Virus record (IMG/VR): IMGVR_UViG_3300027858_000010
Location: 1 to 40,181 of that record
From: a virus
DNA: 40,181 bases
Direction: 5' to 3' (one strand)
In this document: in pieces, positions 8,430 through 40,155 of the stretch
Layout: every line of letters begins with the position of its first letter
Numbering within the stretch: the first letter of the stretch is position 1
Notes under the pieces: generated by a model
Seen by the model: the letters and a program-made list of their open reading frames with translations, nothing else
What the model was told of the DNA's origin: nothing
Databases searched by the model: none
Made by a program: the position numbers and the translations under genes

Positions 8430-9998
8430 ATGAGTTTCTATTTTCCTCTACCACAGACAAAAAAATCAAATGTCAAATATGATTGTGATAAATGCAATCG
8501 TTTTGATAATCCTGCAATTGATACTCCATTCTTTCCATTCTACAAAGGAAGCAATTACAGTGGATTGGTTATATTAGGTCAACAACCATCACAGGATGAT
8601 GACACTCGATCAATTCATTTTTCAAATAAAAAAGCACAAGCAATCAGATCAAATGCATTCAAAGAGGGATTCAATCTAAAAAACGTTGCTGCATTTGTCT
8701 ACGCTCTTAAATGTTATTCAAAAAAGAAATCCACTGAAGTTCAATTCAAATGCTGTCGATCATTCTTAGTCGATGAACTTAATAAATTAAAACCTAAAAT
8801 GATCATTTGTTGTGGAGAAATGGCATTCAAATCCCTATTCAATTTAAAGAACAAAATCCCACCGACAAAGCTCAGAGGTAGGTTGATCCCTAATTATGAA
8901 TTTAATTGCCTTGTGTACACTCTGATGAACCCTAATGACCTATATAATTATGATCAACAATACGCTTTAAAGCGTGATCTTAAACGTGCATTAAAATTCT
9001 GGTCTAAATACAATACCTATAAAAAAGTCGATCAATTACTTCAGGAACGAAAGATCCTTGAAGGGATCACAATTAAAGAGGTTAAAACTGAAAAAGAATT
9101 AAGAGATTGCCTTGATAAGATCTGGAATACAAAAAGAATTGCATTCGATTATGAAGCAACCAATGTCAAACCATTCGATGATAACTTTGAAATCACTCAC
9201 ATTCAATTCTCAACTGCAAAATATGCCTGGGTATTGCATGAATCATTATGGTTGGAAAATGAGAACAATGATTTTATGCTTTGGCATTTCATGGAAAAAT
9301 TTTTACCCAATCCATCAATTGAAAAGATAATCCAAAATGTCAAATTTGAACGCAATGTCAGTCGATGGGTATTTGGCGCTGAAATAGTCAATACTCAAGA
9401 TCCAATGATTGCATCTCATGTGATTGATGAACGCAGAGGAACCACTTCATTAGATTTTCAAAACCTAACAAGGTTTGGCATTCCACCTTATTCAGATACA
9501 GTTAAAACATTTCTAATGAAAAAGGATAAGGATGATAAACAGAATCGAATCAGAGAAGCACCATATGACGATATGATACTCTATGCTGGATTAGATGTTA
9601 TTACTACCTACAATCAATGGTTGTTAATTGAAAAGATACTTCCAATTGTTTACCCTAATGCTAAATATAATTATGAGTTTTTACATAGGGGTCATAAGCT
9701 CTTTGCAAACATGACAAAGGCAGGAATTAAAATAGGTGAAGAAGAATTGGATTCATTGGAAACTACATTAATTAATAAAATGGAATCAGTACTTACTCGC
9801 ATATCTCAGATCCCTCAATTCAAAGCTTATAATACTTATTTAGAAGATAAAACCAATTTAAGTAAATCAACTGATAAGAAATTAAAATCACTTTCTATAA
9901 AAATGAAAGGAGATGGAACTTATGATAAAGATCACTCAAGAACAATCAGCAGTAATACAACAAGTGGTAAACCGATTAGAAGAAAACTTTCATTTTAA
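8430..9998 (+). CDS. DNA polymerase A, N-terminal part: UDG-like domain plus 3'-5' exonuclease
   Basis: A 522-residue protein with no polymerase palm. Residues of about 15-190 resemble family 4 uracil-DNA glycosylase. The four Fe-S-type cysteines fit (C19, C22, C95, C108 or C109). The active-site motifs are altered: GQQPSQ at 50-55 where GEAPG is usual, and MNPND where an HPA-type motif is usual. Family 4 UDG is known to be homologous to the N-terminus of phage SPO1 DNA polymerase. Residues of about 235-420 are a DnaQ-like proofreading domain: FDYEAT (Exo I), QNVKFE (Exo II, Glu in place of the usual Asp) and YAGLD (Exo III). A thumb-like helical part follows, then an unrelated tail ending KPIRRKLSF. 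The 3' end overlaps the next gene by 77 bases. The palm is encoded separately at 10587-11801. Confidence 0.85.
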   Translation: MSFYFPLPQTKKSNVKYDCDKCNRFDNPAIDTPFFPFYKGSNYSGLVILGQQPSQDDDTRSIHFSNKKAQAIRSNAFKEGFNLKNVAAFVYALKCYSKKKSTEVQFKCCRSFLVDELNKLKPKMIICCGEMAFKSLFNLKNKIPPTKLRGRLIPNYEFNCLVYTLMNPNDLYNYDQQYALKRDLKRALKFWSKYNTYKKVDQLLQERKILEGITIKEVKTEKELRDCLDKIWNTKRIAFDYEATNVKPFDDNFEITHIQFSTAKYAWVLHESLWLENENNDFMLWHFMEKFLPNPSIEKIIQNVKFERNVSRWVFGAEIVNTQDPMIASHVIDERRGTTSLDFQNLTRFGIPPYSDTVKTFLMKKDKDDKQNRIREAPYDDMILYAGLDVITTYNQWLLIEKILPIVYPNAKYNYEFLHRGHKLFANMTKAGIKIGEEELDSLETTLINKMESVLTRISQIPQFKAYNTYLEDKTNLSKSTDKKLKSLSIKMKGDGTYDKDHSRTISSNTTSGKPIRRKLSF

Positions 9999-10587
9999 TC
10001 TAAAAGAATTTTCATTCATTTACAATGGAAAGAAAGCCTTTATTGTAGATGTAAGAAAAAGAAAATCACTTATAAAACCATTTTCAATGTATCGAAAAGA
10101 ATTATCTGATTACATTGAGTTGTATAATCTGGATGTAGAAGTATTCAAATCTCCAAATCAAATGAATAATTACCTTACTATGTGTATGCAAATCATTGCT
10201 AACATGCTTGACAGTACCCGAATGGGATCTGTTGAAAACTATATAAATCACATCTGGAAAGAATTTGAATGTGCAGTTGATAATTTTAAAGATCCTGAAC
10301 CGATGCGAATATTTATTGGAAGTATAACTTCAATCATCACAATGATTGATTATAGTCTGGAAATTCAATTATCACAAATGACAGATTCAGATAAGCAAAT
10401 GTCTATGATCAGTCATATAATTCAAGGTATCGATGAATACTTTGAAATAGCTGGTGTATTTGAAATATCAAAAGATTCAATTAAAAAAATAAAAGTCAAA
10501 GGAACTAAATCTGGCAAAGTAACAAATGATAAACCTGATACAATTGATTTAAGCAAAATCAAACCAATAAATATAAGGGAAATTTAA
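9922..10587 (+). CDS. Unknown protein encoded between the two polymerase halves
   Basis: About 221 residues. ATG 9922 is preferred because AAAGGAG lies nine bases upstream; ATG 9913 is too close to it. The gene overlaps the end of the exonuclease gene by 77 bases and the start of the palm gene by one (TAATG). The protein is mostly helical. There is a basic patch (VDVRKRKSLIKPF), a methionine-rich helical centre and a lysine-rich linker before the C-terminal DLSKIKPINIREI. It has no homing-endonuclease (LAGLIDADG, HNH, GIY-YIG) or intein motif. Its position at the polymerase thumb and its forced co-translation suggest a polymerase accessory subunit bridging the two halves. That is inference from context. 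Confidence 0.65.
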   Translation: MIKITQEQSAVIQQVVNRLEENFHFNLKEFSFIYNGKKAFIVDVRKRKSLIKPFSMYRKELSDYIELYNLDVEVFKSPNQMNNYLTMCMQIIANMLDSTRMGSVENYINHIWKEFECAVDNFKDPEPMRIFIGSITSIITMIDYSLEIQLSQMTDSDKQMSMISHIIQGIDEYFEIAGVFEISKDSIKKIKVKGTKSGKVTNDKPDTIDLSKIKPINIREI

Positions 10588-11801
10588 TGATTAATGAATC
10601 TGATTTCAATTTCAATCTCAGATCTAATCCTCAGATGCAGGAATTCCTTTATGAGTTCCTTGGATTAGAACCTCTTACAGAACCTAATAAAAAAACAGGT
10701 AATTACAAAACAGATGAAGCAACAATCATTCATTACGCTGAAAATCAAAACATAAAATTTTGCAAATTATTATTACAATATAGAAAACTTAACAAAGCAT
10801 TGAATACTTATATTGCCGATCTCAAACGCAATGTATCTGAACATGATGGTAGAGTACATCATGAACTATGGTTGAATGTAGCTGAAACCTATCGATCAAG
10901 TTCATCAGATCCCAATTTACAGAATCAACCGAAACATGGTGATATACTTCCGAACCTACCCTGGAAAACAATTAGAAAAGTATTTGTTTGTTTAGGAAAA
11001 GGATGGCTTATATGTGAATTTGATTACGATGGTGCAGAAGTCAAAGTTGCAGGAATGCTTGGCAATGATCCCCAAATGATTGAAGATCTTAATAACGATC
11101 TGGATATGCATTCCCATTGGGCAATTAAACTATTTGGATTGAAAGGTTACTCCTATGAACAGGTAAAAGAAAAGTTTGGTGACAATGAACGATTCCTGGC
11201 AAAGAACAATTTTACTTTTGCTAATTTCTTTGGAGCAGGATTTTCATCAATTGCAGAAGAAATGCGAAAGAGTGATTTCTATAAAGATTTTGTTTATAAC
11301 ATTTACAATCAACGCAAAACAAAACATGAAGCATTTGATCATTACTTCTTTAACTTTTCTCAGAACCATATTAAGGATTGTCAAAATCAATTTTATGAAA
11401 GGTATCACATCTATAAAGCATATCAGGATGCCATAGTTGACAAATACTACAAAACAGGGTATGTTGAAAATCCATTCGGATTTCGCAGAAGATTTCCCTT
11501 AACCAGAAACGAAATAATTAATTATCCAATTCAATCAACGTCATTTTTATTATTGCTTGACTCGTTAATTAATATCGAAGATGAATTGGAGAAAGGAGGA
11601 TGGGAATCACATTTAATCAATCAGATACATGATAGTGGTAAAGCCAATCTGAGAACCTATGAAGGTGGAGACTTCATAGATATGGTAGATGAAAAAATGA
11701 CCGATAAACCCCACCTACCCTGGACTACTACCGTTAGAATGAAAACTGATTGGGAAGTAGGTAAAAACTGGTTGGATATGAAACGAATTAAAACCAATTA
11801 A
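10587..11801 (+). CDS. DNA polymerase A, C-terminal part: palm and fingers
   Basis: A 404-residue family A polymerase catalytic module. It begins inside the thumb (FNFNLRSNPQMQEFLYEFLGLEP, the usual 'FN..S..QL...LF..LGL' segment). It then shows YRSSSSDPNLQNQP, motif A (EFDYDGAEVK, catalytic D146), motif B (R202-FLAK-NNFTFANFFGAG) and motif C (IHDSGKAN near residue 349, with Ser in place of the more usual Glu after HD, as in several phage enzymes). All essential carboxylates are present, so it should polymerise. The exonuclease and UDG-like domains are in the gene ending at 9998. The start overlaps the intervening gene by one base, so the three genes are translationally linked. No frameshift can rejoin the halves. 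Confidence 0.9.
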   Translation: MINESDFNFNLRSNPQMQEFLYEFLGLEPLTEPNKKTGNYKTDEATIIHYAENQNIKFCKLLLQYRKLNKALNTYIADLKRNVSEHDGRVHHELWLNVAETYRSSSSDPNLQNQPKHGDILPNLPWKTIRKVFVCLGKGWLICEFDYDGAEVKVAGMLGNDPQMIEDLNNDLDMHSHWAIKLFGLKGYSYEQVKEKFGDNERFLAKNNFTFANFFGAGFSSIAEEMRKSDFYKDFVYNIYNQRKTKHEAFDHYFFNFSQNHIKDCQNQFYERYHIYKAYQDAIVDKYYKTGYVENPFGFRRRFPLTRNEIINYPIQSTSFLLLLDSLINIEDELEKGGWESHLINQIHDSGKANLRTYEGGDFIDMVDEKMTDKPHLPWTTTVRMKTDWEVGKNWLDMKRIKTN

Positions 11802-13330: not shown

Positions 13331-13417
13331 GGGCAGGTATCCAAATGGCTGAAGGAAGCGGGCTGTAAACCCGTGACATTGGAAACGCTGGAGGTTCAAC
13401 TCCTCCCCTGCCCACCA
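13331..13417 (+). tRNA. tRNA-Tyr (anticodon GTA)
   Basis: An 87-base class II tRNA. The acceptor stem GGGCAGG pairs with CCTGCCC at 13407-13413. The anticodon stem-loop is GCGGG-CTGTAAA-CCCGT with GTA at 13365-13367. A long variable arm follows, then a T arm GGAGG-TTCAACT-CCTCC, the discriminator A and an encoded CCA. The anticodon reads TAC and TAT. It lies only six bases after the Ycf46-like gene and 21 bases before the DUF1257-like gene, so it must be cut out of a polycistronic transcript. A single phage tRNA embedded in an operon is unusual in placement but well formed. Confidence 0.95.
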
Positions 13418-20827: not shown

Positions 20828-21898
20828 ATGAATTTATCTGAACTCACAGTTGAAGCATTTGGATTGCACATTAAAAAAGTAGTTAAATTCACCAAAGGTT
20901 TAAATATAATTGTAGGTGAATCAGAGGAAGGTAAAAGTACTTTGATTCGTGCTTTATATCTTTTAATTGAAAATTCCCCAAGAGGAGGAGAAAAACTATA
21001 TCAATCATGGTTGACTGATAAAAAATTATCAATTCAATTAAAAGATGATGCAGGAAACACCGTTAAGCGCACCAAAAACAAATACTATCTTAATAATGGT
21101 AAACCTTTAAAAGCCTTTGGTACATCTGTTCCAGATCCAGTAAAAGAATTATTTAATTTCAAAGAAATCAATTGGCAGAAACAAAATGATGTTCATTACC
21201 TTTTATTTTCTACTGGAGGATCAGCAGGGAAATTATTAAATAGTGCTACTGGTATGGGTGATCAAGAAATTATCATTGATTCAATTAAACAAAAATTATC
21301 TCATTCAAAAAGTGAAATTAAAAGACATAAAAAAAATAATGAAGTGCATTTAAAAACCATTGAAAGATTAAAAAATATAGTTAGATACAAACTTAAAGCA
21401 GAAGGTATTATTTATTTAGAAAAAGAAGTATCCGAATTAGAAATAAAAACAAGTAGATTAGAAAATATATTGGTACAATTGGAGTTGATAGAGGAAATAA
21501 AAATGAAGTACAAAAGAATAAGTAGGTTTGATGACAATATAAAAACTATTGTCCGTGATCTTGAAGAAACCAATGATTTCGATGAAAGTATTGAAAAACT
21601 TGAATCTATTTTAATAAAGATAAAAAAAATAAAAATCATTGATCCAAATATAATAATATCTTTATTAAATTCATTACATGCTATTCACTCCAAAAATTTG
21701 GAATTAAGTTCACTAAAATTGAAATCCAAATTACTTAAAAAATGCTTAGATCAGATTAAAGAAGCACAAACAGTACAAAAAACAACAGAAAAAAGTATTT
21801 TAATTCAAGAAGCAGAAATTAATGAAGCATTTATTCAATTAGGTTATTGTCCACTATGTAATAGAAAGGTAAAAGATGGAGATACTTGTTGTCGGTGA
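20828..21898 (+). CDS. Rad50/SbcC-like ATPase, N-terminal half ending at the zinc hook
   Basis: A 356-residue protein. Residues 1-150 form the N-lobe of an SMC/Rad50 ATPase: FTKGLNIIVGESEEGKSTLIRALY gives Walker A at 30-37, and a Q-loop-like region (NWQKQNDVHYLL) follows. Residues of about 160-335 are coiled coil. The protein stops right after CPLCNR (C341, C344), the Rad50-type zinc hook CxxC, plus a CC pair at 354-355. Signature motif and Walker B are missing. They are found in the separate gene at 23908-24498. The last 23 bases overlap the Mre11/SbcD-like gene. Together they would form a Rad50-Mre11 complex processing DNA ends. Confidence 0.8.
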   Translation: MNLSELTVEAFGLHIKKVVKFTKGLNIIVGESEEGKSTLIRALYLLIENSPRGGEKLYQSWLTDKKLSIQLKDDAGNTVKRTKNKYYLNNGKPLKAFGTSVPDPVKELFNFKEINWQKQNDVHYLLFSTGGSAGKLLNSATGMGDQEIIIDSIKQKLSHSKSEIKRHKKNNEVHLKTIERLKNIVRYKLKAEGIIYLEKEVSELEIKTSRLENILVQLELIEEIKMKYKRISRFDDNIKTIVRDLEETNDFDESIEKLESILIKIKKIKIIDPNIIISLLNSLHAIHSKNLELSSLKLKSKLLKKCLDQIKEAQTVQKTTEKSILIQEAEINEAFIQLGYCPLCNRKVKDGDTCCR

Positions 21899-22826
21899 TA
21901 GTCATCTTACAGGACGCAATCCTGTTGCACGTTTAGATGACCTTGTTGAAATTCAATTTGAAAAATGGGAATACATTATAGAACTTGCCAATGAAAATGA
22001 TGTACCTATTGTTCACACTGGAGATATATTCAACGTTGCTATAATTGCAAATTCATTACTCACTCGACTTGGAGAAATATTAACCAAATTACATAACCCA
22101 TTGTATTTTGTTTGGGGTAATCATGACCTTCAATATCATTCTATGGATATGTGGGATCGTACATCATTAGGAGTCCTTTGGAAAAACAATAACAAAGTAA
22201 AACATATCTCTGAATTCTGGAGAGATTATAAAATGTGGTGGGCATGGCTGGATTGGGAATCAAAAGAAATACAATGGTATGGAGATCGTCCAGGTTTACT
22301 TTTATCTCATAAAGCTATTGTATCCGGTAAAAAATTAAAAAGACAAGGTTCATGGATCTTAGATGACACCGAATTTTGCTCAAATATTGATACTGATCCC
22401 CAACTTAAAGGATTTTATTTGATTATTTGTGGTCATTGGCACAGACGCTATATTTACAAACATCAAGAAACAAGAGTAATCAATCCTGGGCCTATAATCA
22501 GACGTACAGTTGAAGAATGGTTCATACCTTCAGTTACACTATTAAATCTTGACACATTAATACATAAAGAACTAATTATATCCGACCTTGATCCAGAGCA
22601 GGTTTTGTCCAGAACTCACATTGAACAAAACATTGAAACAATGACAGACAATGTTTTAAAATTTGTTGATTCATTGAAAAACAAAAAATTCAAACATAAA
22701 AAATCATTTTTAAAAACATTAATGCATAATTTAGATCAACATGAACTTCCTAATAGAGTAGAAACAATAATCAGAACAACAACAGCAGATCTAATTGAAA
22801 AAGGAGTTATCAATGAACAATTTTAA
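21876..22826 (+). CDS. Mre11/SbcD-like nuclease
   Basis: A 316-residue calcineurin-like metallophosphoesterase. The metal-binding motifs are in order: GDSH (D8, H10), GDIF (D50), GNHD (81-84), SHK near 145 and GHWH near 187. The C-terminal 110 residues are helical, as expected for the Rad50-binding part. It overlaps the ends of both neighbouring genes (23 bases with the Rad50 N-half, 14 with the thymidylate-synthase-like gene). In T4 the pair is gp47/gp46, which creates 3' single strands for UvsX-driven recombination. Here the same role is likely. Confidence 0.85.
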   Translation: MEILVVGDSHLTGRNPVARLDDLVEIQFEKWEYIIELANENDVPIVHTGDIFNVAIIANSLLTRLGEILTKLHNPLYFVWGNHDLQYHSMDMWDRTSLGVLWKNNNKVKHISEFWRDYKMWWAWLDWESKEIQWYGDRPGLLLSHKAIVSGKKLKRQGSWILDDTEFCSNIDTDPQLKGFYLIICGHWHRRYIYKHQETRVINPGPIIRRTVEEWFIPSVTLLNLDTLIHKELIISDLDPEQVLSRTHIEQNIETMTDNVLKFVDSLKNKKFKHKKSFLKTLMHNLDQHELPNRVETIIRTTTADLIEKGVINEQF

Positions 22827-23657: not shown

Positions 23658-23918
23658 ATGGATTTAGTTGAAGCAAAAATCACTAAAATGAAAAATTTTT
23701 TGAATGACATGAAAAACAAAAATCAAAGAGCAATAGCTCAAGAAGAACTACTTCTTAATCAACTAAAAGAAGAATTTGATATTGATAATTTGGAGGAAGG
23801 ATATGAGCTTTATGATCAATTAATTGATGAAAAAGAAGACAGAAAAAAAAGAGTTGCAAATCAAACAGAATCATTATACAATTCTATCGTTTCTGAAGGA
23901 TTGATCGATGCCACATAA
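23658..23918 (+). CDS. Coiled-coil protein, possible Rad50 arm segment
   Basis: An 86-residue charged helical protein with GGAGG eight bases before ATG. Two heptad-rich helices are joined near FDIDNLEEGYELYDQLIDE, as in the descending coiled-coil arm of Rad50-like proteins just after the hook. It overlaps the C-terminal Rad50 half by 11 bases. It could be a separate arm segment, so the complex would be built from three chains. The call depends on context. Confidence 0.55.
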   Translation: MDLVEAKITKMKNFLNDMKNKNQRAIAQEELLLNQLKEEFDIDNLEEGYELYDQLIDEKEDRKKRVANQTESLYNSIVSEGLIDAT

Positions 23919-24498
23919 TGAAACATTCACAAAACTGTGTGAAATGATTAACATTATGGAAACCGAATTGGTATTCGCTCAATCCAGTTTGCGCTCCAAC
24001 AGACTCATAATTGCCAAAGAAAAATCTATTTTGGAATCCCTGGAGATGGCAAAATCTTATGTCATCAAAATTGGGGATACTACCAGAAAAGAAGTCAAAG
24101 ATTTTATTGAAAACACCGTTACTTTTGCTATCCAAACAGTCTACGGTGACGAGTATAGTTTTGTAGCTCAATTTAATTATGATAAAAGAGACCAATTTGA
24201 AATACAATGGTTTATTGATAGGAATGGAGTTCTTCTTGAACCACGTAAAGACACTATATCAGGAGGCTTAACAGACGTTACTGCTTTTTCTCTCCGATTG
24301 GTCATCCATGCTTTAGAAGAACCTGATCCTGCCCCCATCCTTATCATGGATGAACCTTTTAAAAATGTTTCCAAAAGATATATCCCTTTAGTTTCAAAAA
24401 TGATCAAAGAAATTTCAAAATTATTAAGTCTTCAAATCATTATGTGTAGTCATACAAATGAATTAATCGAACAAGCAGACAATATCATTTACTTATAG
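23908..24498 (+). CDS. Rad50/SbcC-like ATPase, C-terminal half
   Basis: A 196-residue protein with a short N-terminal helical arm and then the C-lobe of an SMC-type ATPase. The ABC signature is ISGGLTDVTAFSLRL (about 122-136). Walker B is APILIMDEPFKNV (about 146-158), with the catalytic Glu. A switch histidine follows in CSHTNELIEQADNIIYL. Walker A is absent. It complements the N-terminal half at 20828-21898. There is no CxxC in this chain, so the hook is provided only by the N-half. The start is supported by AAGGA seven bases upstream. A hairpin follows the stop. Confidence 0.8.
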   Translation: MPHNETFTKLCEMINIMETELVFAQSSLRSNRLIIAKEKSILESLEMAKSYVIKIGDTTRKEVKDFIENTVTFAIQTVYGDEYSFVAQFNYDKRDQFEIQWFIDRNGVLLEPRKDTISGGLTDVTAFSLRLVIHALEEPDPAPILIMDEPFKNVSKRYIPLVSKMIKEISKLLSLQIIMCSHTNELIEQADNIIYL

Positions 24499-33112: not shown

Positions 33113-34083
33113 TAATAAATCCACGACTACAAAAGGCAATTGATGTATTTGATTTATCTGCTTTCTTAGATGAATACCAAGTGGATACTGTACCTGAAGG
33201 TAAAAATATAGGTAGAGGATATGTTGGTACAACCTGTCCTGGATGTGGTGATGCTCGTAACCACTTTGGTATTCATCTGGAAAAAAAATTTGGTACTTGT
33301 TTCAAATGTAAATTTGGAATGGACACAGTTTATCTTGTCAAGTACTTTGCTAATTTAAAAACATTTGATGAAGCAAAAGAATTTCTTTTAGAAAGATTAG
33401 ATGAAGGAGATTATGATATTGTCACTAAAGTTAAAGACATTATAAAAACGGAGAGAAAAGAGACCCCCTATAAACCCCCTTTAAAAGATCTCTTTCCTTG
33501 GGATTCTTATTCAATAACAAATAAAATTTTAAAAAGAAATAAATATATTAAACAATTCTTTAAAGAAAGAAAACTTTATTTATGGCATGTACAACGATAC
33601 AACCTACGATTGGGTGGAATTCATAGTGGGTATCAAGGATACTTACTTTTTCCTTTTTATTATAGAAATAAAATAGTTACATGGCAAGCTCGACAAGTAT
33701 TATCAAAACGATATCATAACCCTGAAAATTTAGGTAACTACATATATGGTGAAGATGAAATTAAAAAAGGTAAACCACTTATATTAGTTGAAGGCTTCTT
33801 AGATATGATAAGAGTTGATTCTTATTTGAGAATAAAGCACAATAATAAATTATCCATTACAACAGGTTGTGCTAAAATGATCTCAAAGGTTCAGATTCAA
33901 CGAATAATCAATTGTAAACCTTCAAGGGTTATTGTGATATTCGATGCCGATTCATGGTTTGATTACAGTCGAATAAAAAATGAAGTACCTATGAATGTAA
34001 ACTTTATTATTCTACCTAAAGGAAAAGATCCAAATGATTTAAGCTGGTCGGAATTAACTTCAATATTCAAAGAAATATTATGA
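33109..34083 (+). CDS. DnaG-like primase
   Basis: A 324-residue primase synthesising RNA primers. It has an N-terminal zinc finger, C43-x2-C46, (H52) and C64-x2-C67. This is followed by a polymerase-type catalytic domain with Toprim motifs: LVEGFLDMIRVD (226-237, catalytic Glu) and VIVIFDADSWFDY (274-286), followed by LPKGKDPND. It is shorter than bacterial DnaG, with no helicase-binding C-domain, as in several phages. It overlaps the methyltransferase and amidase genes (ATGA on both sides), so it is translated as part of a tight operon. No own strong ribosome-binding site is seen. Confidence 0.85.
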   Translation: MIINPRLQKAIDVFDLSAFLDEYQVDTVPEGKNIGRGYVGTTCPGCGDARNHFGIHLEKKFGTCFKCKFGMDTVYLVKYFANLKTFDEAKEFLLERLDEGDYDIVTKVKDIIKTERKETPYKPPLKDLFPWDSYSITNKILKRNKYIKQFFKERKLYLWHVQRYNLRLGGIHSGYQGYLLFPFYYRNKIVTWQARQVLSKRYHNPENLGNYIYGEDEIKKGKPLILVEGFLDMIRVDSYLRIKHNNKLSITTGCAKMISKVQIQRIINCKPSRVIVIFDADSWFDYSRIKNEVPMNVNFIILPKGKDPNDLSWSELTSIFKEIL

Positions 34084-34520
34084 ATCTATTTAAACCTTCT
34101 TATATAATAATACATCATTCATTAACTGTAGATTCAAGAACAGTTTCTTGGCAAGCAATTCGTAATTATCATTTATCATTGGGATGGGATGACATAGGTT
34201 ATCACTATGGAATTGAAATGGTTAATAATAAATATGAAATACTTGTAGGAAGAATGGAAGGAACTCCAGGCGCACATTGCAGAGAAGAAAACATTAATCG
34301 AAAATCCATTGGCATTTGTTGTGTTGGAAATTTCGATGATGAAGCTCCTGATATGGCTCAATGGAATATTCTTATTGATTTATGTGTCAATATTTGCCTG
34401 AGATACGAAATAACAATCAAAAATATAAAAGGACATAAAGAATATGCCCCTTATAAAAGCTGTCCTGGAAAGAAATTTAATATGGATGAATTCAGAAAAG
34501 ATTTAAAGAATCTTTTTTAA
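34080..34520 (+). CDS. N-acetylmuramoyl-L-alanine amidase (endolysin, T7 lysozyme type)
   Basis: A 146-residue Amidase_2 protein cleaving the bond between peptide and glycan in peptidoglycan. The zinc ligands are the histidine in IIIHHS (near 12-13), the histidine in GAHCREEN and the cysteine in YKSCPGKKF. The RKSIGICCVGNFDD phrase is a familiar part of the family. It has no signal peptide or cell-wall-binding domain, so it needs a holin for export; the holin-like gene lies on the opposite strand. It is the last + strand gene. Its 3' end overlaps the 3' end of the convergent histidine kinase by 18 bases. Confidence 0.88.
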   Translation: MNLFKPSYIIIHHSLTVDSRTVSWQAIRNYHLSLGWDDIGYHYGIEMVNNKYEILVGRMEGTPGAHCREENINRKSIGICCVGNFDDEAPDMAQWNILIDLCVNICLRYEITIKNIKGHKEYAPYKSCPGKKFNMDEFRKDLKNLF

Positions 34521-36731
34521 AGCCTCTGCATATTCATATCTTGTTATTGGTTTTCTAATATATACATCGACAAGATTATCATATAAATTTGATTCAAATC
34601 TTCCATTACTACCCAATCCTGAACAAAGAACAACTTTAATTTCAGGTCTAATTTTTTTAATCTCATTTATTAAAACCAAACCTGTCATTTCTGGCATTGT
34701 TAAATCAGTTAATACCACATTATATTTATCTGGATTAATACGAAATTCTTCTAATGCTTTCATACTACTAACAAAAGAAGTTACTTTATAATTTAAAGAT
34801 TCTAATATTTTAATAATTGCTTCTATTATAGCTTCTTCATCATCCACAAGAAGAATTGATTCTTTATTTCCCATAGGAGCTACTTTATCTACCATATATT
34901 TCCTCGCCCCTTTTCCATTTTTTAAATAAGCAGGAATATAAATTACAATTCTCGTTCCTACTTCAACTTCACTATACAAACGAATATATCCCCCATAATT
35001 TCTTACTATTCTATCCACCACTGATAAACCTATTCCCGTTCCTTCTCCCTCTTTTTTAGTGGTAAAATATGGATCAAAAGCACGTTGTATAATTTCAGGA
35101 GGCATCCCTTTTCCATTATCCTCTACTTCAATTCTAACATATTTACCTTTAGGTATTCCATACTGTTCCGCTATAACTTTTTCATTACATATATCAATAA
35201 CAATTCTTCCTTCTTCATCATACATTGCTTGAGCAGCATTTTTACATAAATTCATTAATATTTGTTTAATAGTAACATCACTTACCTCTACCAATTCTAT
35301 GTCTTTATCTATATTTAATTCCATATCTATTGACGTTGGAATCATAGATCTTAAAAAATTAAAAGCTTCTCTAACACACTTAGGTAAATCCAAAGGTACT
35401 AATATTTCTGATTCTCCATTTTTACGAGCAAAAGATTGAATTCTACGCACAAGAAGTCCTGCAACTTCTGCTGCTGCAATTATAGCACTTATATTTTTAT
35501 GATGTATCTGACAACTTTCACCATCATGCATTTCATGAAGTACAATATCACAATTTCCAATTATAGGCTGTAAAGCATTATTAAAATCATGAGCAATACC
35601 ATTAGCAAAACTGCCTATTGCTTCCATTTTAGAAACTTGTCTTTGATGCTTATTAAGTTTAACAAGTTCTTCTTCAGCTTTTTTACGTTCAGTAATATCA
35701 TTTATTGCAGTAATTCTTACAGACCGACCACAATATTCAATCTGTTTACCATGAACCTCTACATAACGAATAGAACCATCCTTATGAACACACCTATGTT
35801 CATAAGGTTCTGTGTAATCTTCTTTAATATTTTTAAAAACAAGATCTTGATCCTCACTATAAACGAAATCTGTAACATGCATACCAAGCATTTCATCTCG
35901 TTTATACCCAAACATTTTAATAAAACTATCATTACCATCTACAAATCTACCATCCTCAGTAATAGCAGTACCTTCAAAAGCAGCCTCGAAAAAAGTTCTT
36001 AAACGATTTTCACTATCTATAAGATCTTGTTTAGTTTTATCTTTTTTAGATAATAATTCTTTATAATCTTCTTTATCTTTTTCAAGTTGATTTATAATAG
36101 GATTAATTAATCTTCTAAAAAATAATACCCCAAAAAAGACAATGACAAATCCAGGAATCATAGCTAAAGATGTTCCCTGAAGAAATCCAATTCGGATTTT
36201 ACTCAAGTACACTTTTGTAACAAGTCCAACATCAATCGATGGAATATAAGTATAAGCTGCAAGCACCAATCTTCCATTATAATCTTTAGCTTTAACTATT
36301 CCTGTTTCTTTATTTAAAGCCAATTGCATAGGCACTCCATATTCATCACCCATTGGCAATGGCTTATATGTTTCTGACTCCTGCCACGATTGAGTTATCC
36401 AATTAATCATATTATTTTCTAAATAACCAATAGTTATTTCAATATTTCCTTGTAATTCTAATCTACCTCTTGCTTGTTTAAGTTGTCTTATACTTTCCTT
36501 CCTAATTAACTCAGTAACATCTCCTTTAATATCACTATGTCTTGAAATAGCATGATCTTTTTGAAAATCAACAACAGAATCAATTAATCTTGATAGATGC
36601 AGAGCCATATCTTTTAAATGATTTCCACTACTATCTATTGACTGTATGTATAAAAAAGAAGAAGTTATCAATCCAGCAAAGAGAGATACGCCCACCATTA
36701 TACTTATCAATTTAGTATGAAAATTTTTCAT
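34503..36731 (-). CDS. Membrane hybrid sensor histidine kinase with PAS and receiver domains
   Basis: About 742 residues from ATG 36731, which starts one base after the upstream stop. TM1 (LISIMVGVSLFAGLITSSFLYI) comes first, then an external sensor of about 150 residues, possibly dCache-like (LAAYTYIPSIDVGLVTKV), then TM2 near 184-207. A PAS domain follows (EAAFEGTAITEDGRFVDGND ...). The phosphoacceptor motif is AHDFNNALQP (His about 381). The ATPase boxes are N (QILMNLCKNAAQAM), G1 (VEDNGKGMP) and G2 (GEGTGIGLSVV). A C-terminal receiver has LLVDDEE, LTDLT (phospho-Asp near 675) and a KP lysine. All catalytic residues are intact. It is flanked by phage lysis and virion genes. A full hybrid kinase in a phage is very rare. 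Confidence 0.88.
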   Translation of the reverse strand: MKNFHTKLISIMVGVSLFAGLITSSFLYIQSIDSSGNHLKDMALHLSRLIDSVVDFQKDHAISRHSDIKGDVTELIRKESIRQLKQARGRLELQGNIEITIGYLENNMINWITQSWQESETYKPLPMGDEYGVPMQLALNKETGIVKAKDYNGRLVLAAYTYIPSIDVGLVTKVYLSKIRIGFLQGTSLAMIPGFVIVFFGVLFFRRLINPIINQLEKDKEDYKELLSKKDKTKQDLIDSENRLRTFFEAAFEGTAITEDGRFVDGNDSFIKMFGYKRDEMLGMHVTDFVYSEDQDLVFKNIKEDYTEPYEHRCVHKDGSIRYVEVHGKQIEYCGRSVRITAINDITERKKAEEELVKLNKHQRQVSKMEAIGSFANGIAHDFNNALQPIIGNCDIVLHEMHDGESCQIHHKNISAIIAAAEVAGLLVRRIQSFARKNGESEILVPLDLPKCVREAFNFLRSMIPTSIDMELNIDKDIELVEVSDVTIKQILMNLCKNAAQAMYDEEGRIVIDICNEKVIAEQYGIPKGKYVRIEVEDNGKGMPPEIIQRAFDPYFTTKKEGEGTGIGLSVVDRIVRNYGGYIRLYSEVEVGTRIVIYIPAYLKNGKGARKYMVDKVAPMGNKESILLVDDEEAIIEAIIKILESLNYKVTSFVSSMKALEEFRINPDKYNVVLTDLTMPEMTGLVLINEIKKIRPEIKVVLCSGLGSNGRFESNLYDNLVDVYIRKPITRYEYAEALKKIL

Positions 36732-36732
36732 A

Positions 36733-37134
36733 TTACCTGTATTGCTTATCATTATCTTGCTTAATAAGAAGATTATAAATATCTTTTTGTGAAGATCGCA
36801 TTTCTTTAAAACCATCATTCATATCATCATGTAATTGAATGATCTTTGTATTATAATCTCTTTGCATATTTTCAAATTTATGATCATTTACTACATCTTT
36901 AATATCTTGATCTTTAATATGAGTTATAAAAGTTTCCTCATATTTTGCAGAAATTCCGTAAGTAGTATGAGTTACATAAGCTCCCCAGGAAATTACACCA
37001 CCACCTAACAATGCTATAAGAATTGGCAACAAAACTGAAGATAGATATTTTTTTCTTTTTTCTAATGTGCGCCGATCAACTGTATACCTACGTTTAGATT
37101 CCCTTCTTTCTTCTCCCTCCCATTCCTTTTCCAT
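36733..37134 (-). CDS. Single-pass membrane protein of the lysis region
   Basis: A 133-residue protein. ATG 37134 is preferred because AAAGGAG lies eight to nine bases upstream. The N-terminal 35 residues are highly charged (EKEWEGEERRESKRRYTVDRRTLEKRKK). One TM segment follows (LSSVLLPILIALLGGGVISWGAYV), then a C-terminal coiled-coil-prone domain (DDMNDGFKEMRSSQKDIYNLLIKQDNDKQ). The layout fits an inner-membrane accessory such as a spanin-like or XhlA-like lysis factor. It lies between the holin-like gene and the histidine kinase. It could also be a partner for the kinase. Confidence 0.55.
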   Translation of the reverse strand: MEKEWEGEERRESKRRYTVDRRTLEKRKKYLSSVLLPILIALLGGGVISWGAYVTHTTYGISAKYEETFITHIKDQDIKDVVNDHKFENMQRDYNTKIIQLHDDMNDGFKEMRSSQKDIYNLLIKQDNDKQYR

Positions 37135-37163
37135 ATGTTTGTCTCCTTTTATCAAACATTGTT

Positions 37164-37430
37164 TTATTTAATATCACACTCCGTAGGAGGTTGAGGAATT
37201 TTAGGTTCTTTCATAATGATAGCTGTATTCTTCTCCATTTTATGCCCTGCTCCCCAAATACCAAATGCTGTAGCAAGACCATCTAATGCAACTCCTATAA
37301 ACATCATCCAAGGAGATACTTTAGGATTTGGTACAACTTGACCTAATCCAATGATACTTGTTCCAATAGCAGCAAGAAATGCTGATGTTTTCATTTTCCA
37401 TCCACTCATAGGTGTTTTTTTATTTCCCAT
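37164..37430 (-). CDS. Holin-like small membrane protein
   Basis: An 88-residue protein from ATG 37430 (GGAAGG nine bases upstream; overlaps the previous stop). It has two hydrophobic segments (TSAFLAAIGTSIIGLGQVV and PWMMFIGVALDGLATAFGIWGAG) with a short turn and a charged tail. This is the size and topology of class II holins. It would release the amidase encoded on the other strand at 34080-34520. The call rests on topology and neighbourhood. Confidence 0.6.
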   Translation of the reverse strand: MGNKKTPMSGWKMKTSAFLAAIGTSIIGLGQVVPNPKVSPWMMFIGVALDGLATAFGIWGAGHKMEKNTAIIMKEPKIPQPPTECDIK

Positions 37431-38263
37431 TATAACCATCCTTCCATAGATTTAATTTGTTTAAAAATAACTCCTGATTTATAATTCAAAACAGGAACAG
37501 TTACTATATGTTTTGGTAAAAAATTATTATGTTTCTTTTGATTTTCCAGACCAACAATATAATCTGTACCTAATAAAGCTGAAGCAAGATAAATTGGGCC
37601 TGAATCAACACCAATAAAAAATTTACATTTACTTATTTCCTCAATCATTTTTTTAAGATCAGCTTTTTCATATCGTAAGGAGCAATCGGGAGTAAGACAC
37701 TCCATCGAATCAGCTTCTATAAAATCAGGATATTCATCTGCAAAACTTGGGGTCATATGACACTCATAAGGTTCATATCCTGCATCAACTATTTCCTGCC
37801 ATATTTCTTCAGCTACGTCCACTGGACAGAACTTTTTATCCATTCCAGTATGACCAAACAAGTGAACCCCAACTCTTTTTGAATTTTTATTTTTATATTT
37901 ATTAGGTATGATAAAAGGTTTCCAGGGGAATTCCTTCATTCCTAATTCATAGAAAGCACAGATATAAGGTTTTGCAGGTTCATCAGATATGTCTATCGGG
38001 ATAAGACTATTTTTAGGATCTGGATATAATATTTTATAAATGTATGCATATTGACTCTTATCAAATGATCTGTCAATAGTTATTATATTTTTATTAATAA
38101 GATTAAATTGTCTTTTTTTACTTGCTCCAAGAAAACATTTAATTCCTACTTGTTCTAAAAATTCATACCATACAGGTAAAAAAAGAATTAAATCCCCTAA
38201 TCCATGTTCAAAAATAAATAATGATCTTCCAACAATTCTTTTAACCTTATCAATAGGTTTCAT
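37430..38263 (-). CDS. GT9-like glycosyltransferase (heptosyltransferase fold)
   Basis: A 277-residue protein. FEHGLGDLILFLPVWYEFLE matches the N-terminal GDxL loop of ADP-heptose:LPS heptosyltransferases. The second Rossmann domain begins at VGVHLFGHTGMDKKFCP. The nucleotide-sugar motif FFIGVDSGPIYLASALLG matches the D-[ST]-G-x-x-H/Y-x-A-x-A region of GT9, with Tyr in place of the common His. It may decorate virion proteins or modify the cell surface to block superinfection. Which sugar it uses is not visible. It is in the virion and lysis operon (- strand), upstream of the holin-like gene. Confidence 0.7.
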   Translation of the reverse strand: MKPIDKVKRIVGRSLFIFEHGLGDLILFLPVWYEFLEQVGIKCFLGASKKRQFNLINKNIITIDRSFDKSQYAYIYKILYPDPKNSLIPIDISDEPAKPYICAFYELGMKEFPWKPFIIPNKYKNKNSKRVGVHLFGHTGMDKKFCPVDVAEEIWQEIVDAGYEPYECHMTPSFADEYPDFIEADSMECLTPDCSLRYEKADLKKMIEEISKCKFFIGVDSGPIYLASALLGTDYIVGLENQKKHNNFLPKHIVTVPVLNYKSGVIFKQIKSMEGWL

Positions 38264-39147: not shown

Positions 39148-40155
39148 TTATGTAGTAATTTCCAAACCAAACTCAGCCGCTTCTAACTTTGTTTGAGTCC
39201 AGGGATTTGAATCATCTGGATCAGTTTCCCAAATTTCTGATTCAAACAAATAATCAGCAGTAATATTTTCAGTTTCAGTTCCTAAATAGTCAGTTGAATT
39301 GGATCTAATTAAAGGTGTAATTTGTCTGGTTCCAGCTTCATCTATTCTACAATGATTGTTTAATTGAATTGCTTTAACCGTTCCTAATGCTCCAGTAGTA
39401 ATACCAAAACCCTGCTTATGATTTAATGTATCTGAATATATGTAATCAGTATCATCATTTGACAATGTTTCATCAACACATTCATCCTTATTTCCTGCCG
39501 ATGCTGTGAAACTATTATTGGTAGAAGAAATAGAATCAGGCATGAAAGTTCTTATTCGGCAATCACCATGAAACTGTGCATCATCAACATACATATCATC
39601 AAAATAAACAGACTGACTACTGTATATACCCGCAAGTCTGATCTTTCTTATATAATCAGATGCAGCATTTTTGGTATCCTGAGAGGTTAAATTTAAAACC
39701 TGATTCTCATTTATTCGTATAGTCACCTCACCAACAGTATCACTAATGGTAACTTTAATTTCTAAGTAACACCATTTATAATTTTCAAAAATAGCATCAC
39801 CAGTAGAACCAAGTAAGGTATTATCTCCACGATAAACATTTATACCCATAGCAAGATTAACACATAATTTTACTTGTCCTGCTCCTGATTCATCTAAAAA
39901 ATATAAAAAAGGATAACTTGTTGAAAGAGTTGGAACACCTCCATCCATTTTTTTAATTGCTACACCAAAATAAATTGTTGATTTATTTACTTCAAAATTC
40001 AGCACATAATCTTGACTTTGAGAACCAGAATGAAATGCTTGACCACCAAATCTTCCACCAACCATATCTAAACCACCTGATGCATACTCACTATATTTAT
40101 CTATCATCTGACTAACAGTATAGTGATCAAAACCATCTATAAGTAAAAGTGTCAT
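39148..40155 (-). CDS. Lectin-like virion protein (tail fibre type)
   Basis: A 335-residue, beta-rich protein beginning LLLIDGFDHY, a motif at the start of many phage virion proteins with a concanavalin-like jelly roll. The first about 190 residues form that domain (FGGQAFHSGSQS, IYFGVAIKK, WCYLEIKVTISDTVGEVTIRIN, IRLAGIYSS, YFDDMYVDD). The rest looks like a second beta domain with Asn/Thr-rich strands. It ends KLEAAEFGLEITT. The gene upstream ends CEFGMEVA, so the two are paralogues or share a C-terminal module. It probably sits in the tail and binds glycans on the host. It overlaps the preceding stop by one base or more. Confidence 0.7.
   Translation of the reverse strand: MTLLLIDGFDHYTVSQMIDKYSEYASGGLDMVGGRFGGQAFHSGSQSQDYVLNFEVNKSTIYFGVAIKKMDGGVPTLSTSYPFLYFLDESGAGQVKLCVNLAMGINVYRGDNTLLGSTGDAIFENYKWCYLEIKVTISDTVGEVTIRINENQVLNLTSQDTKNAASDYIRKIRLAGIYSSQSVYFDDMYVDDAQFHGDCRIRTFMPDSISSTNNSFTASAGNKDECVDETLSNDDTDYIYSDTLNHKQGFGITTGALGTVKAIQLNNHCRIDEAGTRQITPLIRSNSTDYLGTETENITADYLFESEIWETDPDDSNPWTQTKLEAAEFGLEITT

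Follow-up and report, generated by a model that had tools for sequence, protein, structure and literature searches.

Phages respond to the two-component systems of their hosts. Marine phages, as Zeng and Chisholm are said to have found in 2012, use the host PhoR-PhoB pair, the phage genes obeying a host kinase; in that case the phage is tied to a two-component system of its host, whereas the phage considered here brings a kinase of its own. The DNA analysed, hereafter called the window, is a linear record from IMG/VR, 40181 bases long.

Phage histidine kinases themselves are already on record. Phage phiCDHM1 carries an AgrC histidine kinase, without a phage response regulator, that is transcribed during infection (Hargreaves 2014, PMC3901668); it is a GHKL protein lacking a receiver, is accompanied by the AgrB/AgrD quorum-sensing genes, is close to C. 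difficile host genes and belongs to a phage that can lysogenise. The window kinase, on the other hand, is not of the AgrC type: its domain order is PAS-HisKA-HATPase-REC and its neighbours are a glycosyltransferase-9 (GT9)-like gene, a holin-like gene, a small membrane partner and an amidase, with no agrB or agrD. Hybrid sensor histidine kinases are also listed in reconstructed hot-spring phage genomes (PMC6302217), where they are given by name, without analysis of partner, clade or context, the likeness to the present kinase being one of name.

The best bacterial match is offered by two Cache/PAS hybrid kinases of plasmid pHRM2a of Desulforapulum autotrophicum HRM2 (WP_232364313.1 and WP_049770555.1), which share with the phage kinase the PAS-HisKA(HDFNN)-HATPase-REC order, the catalytic residues and a core that is 34-39% identical; however, they fall outside the phage clade, their sensors are unmatched at the sequence level and, unlike the phage kinase, they have no small transmembrane partner annotated directly before them. 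Of a phage-specific clade of hybrid kinases with a conserved membrane partner no description was found in a literature search that covered few subscription journals.

Domain architecture of the kinase

The plus strand of 34503-36731 is full of stops and the kinase is read from the minus strand. Its reading frame can open at 36818 (771-aa ORF), but the ATG at 36731 is preferred as the start, the open frame in the related contig L003 extending no more than two codons upstream of the corresponding ATG. Two transmembrane helices, an extracytoplasmic domain, PAS, HisKA, HATPase and receiver follow one another in this order.

34503-36731, minus strand: hybrid histidine kinase of 742 aa, ATG at 36731; the longer ORF is not conserved
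36027-36731, minus strand: sensor region, residues 1-235, with predicted TM1 (~4-22), Cache-like (PDC) domain and TM2 (~187-205)
35688-35972, minus strand: PAS domain (Pfam PAS_9, 4.4e-15; residues 283-377 of the 771-aa ORF)
35418-35615, minus strand: HisKA/DHp domain with the HDFNN motif (Pfam HisKA, 2.5e-4, and alignment)
35589-35591, minus strand: codon of the predicted phospho-acceptor H381, within GIAHDFNN
34929-35273, minus strand: HATPase_c catalytic domain, N, G1, F and G2 boxes intact (Pfam, 2.8e-24)
34518-34856, minus strand: receiver (REC) domain (Response_reg, 9.9e-17, 61.6 bits)
34704-34706, minus strand: codon of the predicted phospho-acceptor D676 of the receiver; K727 is also conserved

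The catalytic domain scores far above its Pfam cut-off (86.1 vs 26.4 bits); HisKA is under the gathering cut-off (21.4 vs 26.9 bits), yet aligns with bacterial kinases. The catalytic residues are H381, N494/N498, D538-G540-G542 and G564/G566/G568, those of the receiver D630/D631, D676, S704 and K727, and the whole set from H381 to K727 is conserved in all six distinct kinases of the family, the sole change being D630 to E in contig L034. The preliminary description had proposed an intact hybrid kinase with two transmembrane segments, PAS, catalytic and receiver domains and every key residue in place; Pfam domains, hydrophobic segments and family conservation all agree with it. Judged by domains and residues, the protein is thus an intact hybrid histidine kinase, for which autophosphorylation and phosphotransfer are predicted.

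The sensor region and the membrane partner

The two hydrophobic segments (~4-22 and ~187-205) flank an extracytoplasmic domain of ~160 residues, and the sensor region matched neither Pfam, Cache families included, nor PDB sequences. An AlphaFold2 model built from four phage homologues reached a pLDDT of 73.7 and a pTM of 0.63, as against a pLDDT of 38.5 from single-sequence input. Foldseek matches of the model are the sensor domains of TlpB, WalK and DctB, TlpB being the best crystal match (E 1.2e-3, TM-score 0.42 by query and up to 0.63 by target). With these modest scores the kinase sensor resembles an extracytoplasmic Cache/PDC domain in its predicted fold, at identities of 11-15% and partial TM-scores from which a ligand is not predictable.

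Directly upstream of the kinase lies the gene of its partner.

36733-37134, minus strand: partner, single-pass membrane protein of ~133 aa, one base before the kinase ATG

Hydropathy and charge place the Arg-rich N-terminus of the partner inside and its charged, helix-like C-terminal tail outside. The coupling within one base pointed out earlier is real, the gene that ends one base before the kinase ATG being that of this membrane protein. A partner 43-80% identical among contigs stands directly upstream of the Cache-bearing kinase in all four contigs having such a kinase, overlapping it by ATGA in L033 and lying a few bases away in the others, and it was not found away from the kinase in either the viral contig collection or INPHARED. 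In L032 the kinase is without the TM/Cache part and likewise without the partner, the gene upstream being intact. In these four pairs and one joint absence, partner and Cache sensor are present or absent together; the partner and the kinase would be expected to interact physically in the host inner membrane.

It is the N-terminus that varies within the family: four kinases have the full sensor, that of L032 has none and that of L034 has a different two-segment start, which lies at the contig edge. The constancy of the kinase core in the face of this variation points to a conserved output with an exchangeable input.

The locus and its relatives

On the minus strand the order is fibre-like genes, GT9-like gene, holin-like gene, partner and, last, kinase.

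37430-38263, minus strand: glycosyltransferase-like gene (GT9-like)
37164-37439, minus strand: 91-aa holin-like protein with two TM segments, flanking and outside the cassette; no family match, putative holin role
34080-34520, plus strand: Amidase_2 endolysin, outside the cassette, converging with the kinase and overlapping its 3' end by 18 nt
34428-34452, minus strand: terminator-like hairpin with T-rich tail, ~50 nt past the kinase stop; weak, by consensus only

The amidase gene belongs to a plus-strand run of replication genes; the window also encodes a primase, DnaB and UvsW-type helicases, a RecA-like protein, a DNA polymerase and a ribonucleotide reductase, and no integrase was seen among the window proteins annotated, a scanned subset of its genes. 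Since the endolysin is on the plus strand and convergent, the kinase is outside its transcription unit. The "lysis/virion operon" in which the kinase had been placed therefore stands as a minus-strand run with fibre-like and holin-like genes, but not as one that includes the endolysin.

The kinase occurs at the same place in three other IMG/VR contigs, L002 (100% identity), L003 (88%) and L032 (~65%). In the first two it has the same neighbours as in the window, and in the third, a more distant relative, it occupies the corresponding interval, flanked by the GT9-like and the holin-like gene; the shared flanks led to rejection of a host-phage chimera or host contamination, answering the concern about an assembly join, and the gene is undisrupted in all three. 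On the other hand, it is absent from the same site in two close relatives, L007 (108 kb) and L151, where an unrelated protein of 180-200 aa and a holin-like gene are found, and neither a kinase nor a receiver was detected anywhere in the 108-kb contig of L007. The absence from some related phages that was to count against the gene thus marks it as accessory, not as false.

The holin-like gene of the locus is present in L007, L032 and L151 and absent from L003. At the amidase position L151 has an unrelated ORF (2393-2857) whose match is to the C-terminal part of a tail-lysozyme family (phrog_1259); to judge from this match, the cell-wall hydrolase-like ORF is a putative endolysin replacement at the same site.

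The comparison of L003 (4928-7626) with the window (34080-37439) is instructive in that neither amidase nor holin-like gene is left in the former, its lysis genes having to be elsewhere or different, whereas kinase and partner are kept; the flanking primase is ~93% identical. Between these two genomes the kinase has a dN/dS of 0.38 and the partner one of 0.29, as against 0.14-0.20 for four other, core genes: kinase and partner are constrained, but evolve faster than the core genes measured.

Distribution of the kinase family among phages

In scans of 2.9 million viral contigs at least six were found to bear closely related kinases, the next matches being at most 38% identical; because a match needed an exact short peptide, six is a lower bound. 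Apart from the relatives of the window, these are L033 (56 kb), with genes for portal, tape measure, DNA polymerase, primase and DnaB, L099 (57 kb), with terminase and major head and tail proteins, and L034 (8.5 kb), in which the kinase is upstream of both terminase and portal. In L033 the kinase-partner pair is surrounded by virion genes.

These contexts bear on the possibility that the kinase senses lysis timing or the state of the envelope and either acts on phage lysis proteins or triggers or delays lysis. Its proximity to the holin-like gene, its convergence with the amidase, its predicted periplasmic sensor and its position in the lysis-site region of both the window and L032 speak for such a role; yet the endolysin is on the opposite strand, in L003 kinase and partner persist at a site without amidase and holin-like genes, L033 and L034 have the pair or the kinase amid or upstream of virion genes, and the L032 kinase has no periplasmic domain. 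Across the family, lysis genes do not regularly accompany the pair; a direct role in lysis, though possible, is therefore not the preferred reading and is considered unlikely, and the link to lysis originally proposed is not borne out.

The six distinct phage kinases group together with 100/100 support in a tree of 62 kinases, their clade being set off by a stem of 1.36 changes per column; across phage lineages they are 45-67% identical. Leave-one-out profiles, those for the window, L003 and L032 kinases being built without that whole set, give the family members 507-585 bits, whereas no bacterial or plasmid kinase sampled exceeds 324. No member of the clade was found in 1,040 genomes from four phyla (best 294 bits); the phylum of Desulforapulum, which supplied the best bacterial match and is probably also that of the host, lay outside this broad search, so that bacterial members may exist and a bacterial branch may lie inside the phage clade. 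A search of genome contigs with sensor-derived patterns returned generic kinases only. The phylogeny suggested earlier for tracing the donor has thus yielded the clade but not the donor lineage.

L033, L099 and L034 have essentially no other genes in common with the window. Between the window and L099 nothing but kinase and partner is shared, and they are also the only clear homologues between the window and L033, apart from one weak polymerase-exonuclease match; L007, in turn, has a single fibre-like protein in common with L033 and no protein in common with L099. In addition, the GC content of the kinase tracks that of each phage (29.7, 40.5, 42.4 and 44.3%). Sharing and GC pattern together suggest a two-gene cassette that has passed between unrelated phages and stayed in them long enough for adaptation, and the recurrence of the same pair in otherwise unrelated viruses makes it look less like a host gene gone astray than like a signalling device dedicated to the virus. 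On the strength of its monophyly and of its embedding in phage gene clusters, the family appears to be phage- and not host-borne, within a limited sampling of bacterial phyla.

Hybrid kinases of this kind are common in bacteria and the gene is missing from L007 and L151, as might be expected of a functionless moron recently picked up by chance from a host, or of a chimeric contig. Such an origin is very improbable, being opposed by the same flanks in other contigs, by a phage-specific clade with 45-67% identity across phage lineages and by phage-like GC, purifying selection and co-occurrence with the partner.

Some INPHARED matches of the kinase were set aside: MT835693 (MT835693.1, L020) and MaAM05 look bacterial to judge from their gene content, several more are contigs resembling chromosomes of Salmonella or Acinetobacter, and the kinase of LR756501, a 735-kb uncultured phage, is distant and of a different type. 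MT835693.1, like MW495066.1 (L019), is filed as a phage with bacterial-looking genes around the kinase; misfiled entries of this kind inflate counts of phage kinases.

Probable output of the cassette and proposed mechanism

The search for an unpaired phage response regulator, proposed as a check, gave none: the phage records searched that bear the kinase showed neither an HPt nor a separate receiver or response regulator, although they are contigs of unproven completeness whose missing parts could hold one. The output is therefore probably directed to phosphorelay proteins of the host.

The same finding would also suit a hybrid kinase that is not a signalling input but a phosphate sink or phosphatase decoy silencing a stress or defence response of the host. 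The DHp domain has a D-x-x-N phosphatase-type motif (HDFNN), a receiver is attached to it, and L032 shows that the sensor part is dispensable; nevertheless, all the ATP-binding and kinase motifs are retained and sensor and partner are kept as a unit in four kinases, although a pure sink would need neither. This reading is accordingly given little weight.

A phage-adapted two-gene sensory cassette that retunes host transcription through the host phosphorelay is the explanation to which we give somewhat better than even chances. Partner and Cache-PAS hybrid kinase would be placed side by side in the inner membrane of the host, where an extracytoplasmic cue (through the Cache domain or the partner) or a cytoplasmic cue (through PAS) would switch the kinase; the latter would autophosphorylate at H381 and pass the phosphate to D676 of its own receiver, from which it would go to, or through which it would be drained from, an HPt/response regulator pair of the host. 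Host transcription would be retuned in this way during infection, probably late. Membrane topology, the contact between kinase and partner, late expression and the flow of phosphate to host proteins are inferred.

A special case of this cassette model is a sensor of superinfection or of communication that alters surface receptors or defence via the host relay. The run shared with fibre-like and glycosyltransferase-like genes, and the similar position of the L033 pair among virion genes, are compatible with it, but the sequence points to no ligand or regulon, and so specific a role is held to be quite improbable. In more general terms, the cassette may represent a viral input module, consisting of the partner and a hybrid kinase with exchangeable sensor, that moves between unrelated phages and controls the state of the host via its phosphorelay, a generalization that we regard as tentative and a little short of an even chance. 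If true, the genomes would offer direct evidence for the rewiring of host phosphorelays by some phages through a sensor of their own, and it becomes testable what a phage perceives in the course of infection and which regulator of the host is taken over.

Other features of the window

Tandem, divergent fibre-like genes (~335-350 aa, phrog_2448/6368) lie upstream in the run of the kinase, at 39148-40155 of the window, and tandem copies varying in number and sequence are present in the relatives (L002 877-5028, L003 124-3210, L007 16634-21241). A tRNA-Tyr(GTA) at 13331-13417, directly after an AAA ATPase gene, is a possible clue to the host. The family-A DNA polymerase is split (8430-11801) into an ORF for UDG and 3'-5' exonuclease (8430-9998) and one for the polymerase domain (10587-11801), with a 224-aa ORF (9913-10587) between them, a three-ORF layout repeated in the contig of L003 (L131). 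Finally, SbcC/SbcD-like genes seem to be separate ORFs, assigned by eye to an N-terminal ATPase (20828-21898), a nuclease (21876-22826) and a C-terminal ATPase (23908-24498), with other genes interspersed among them.
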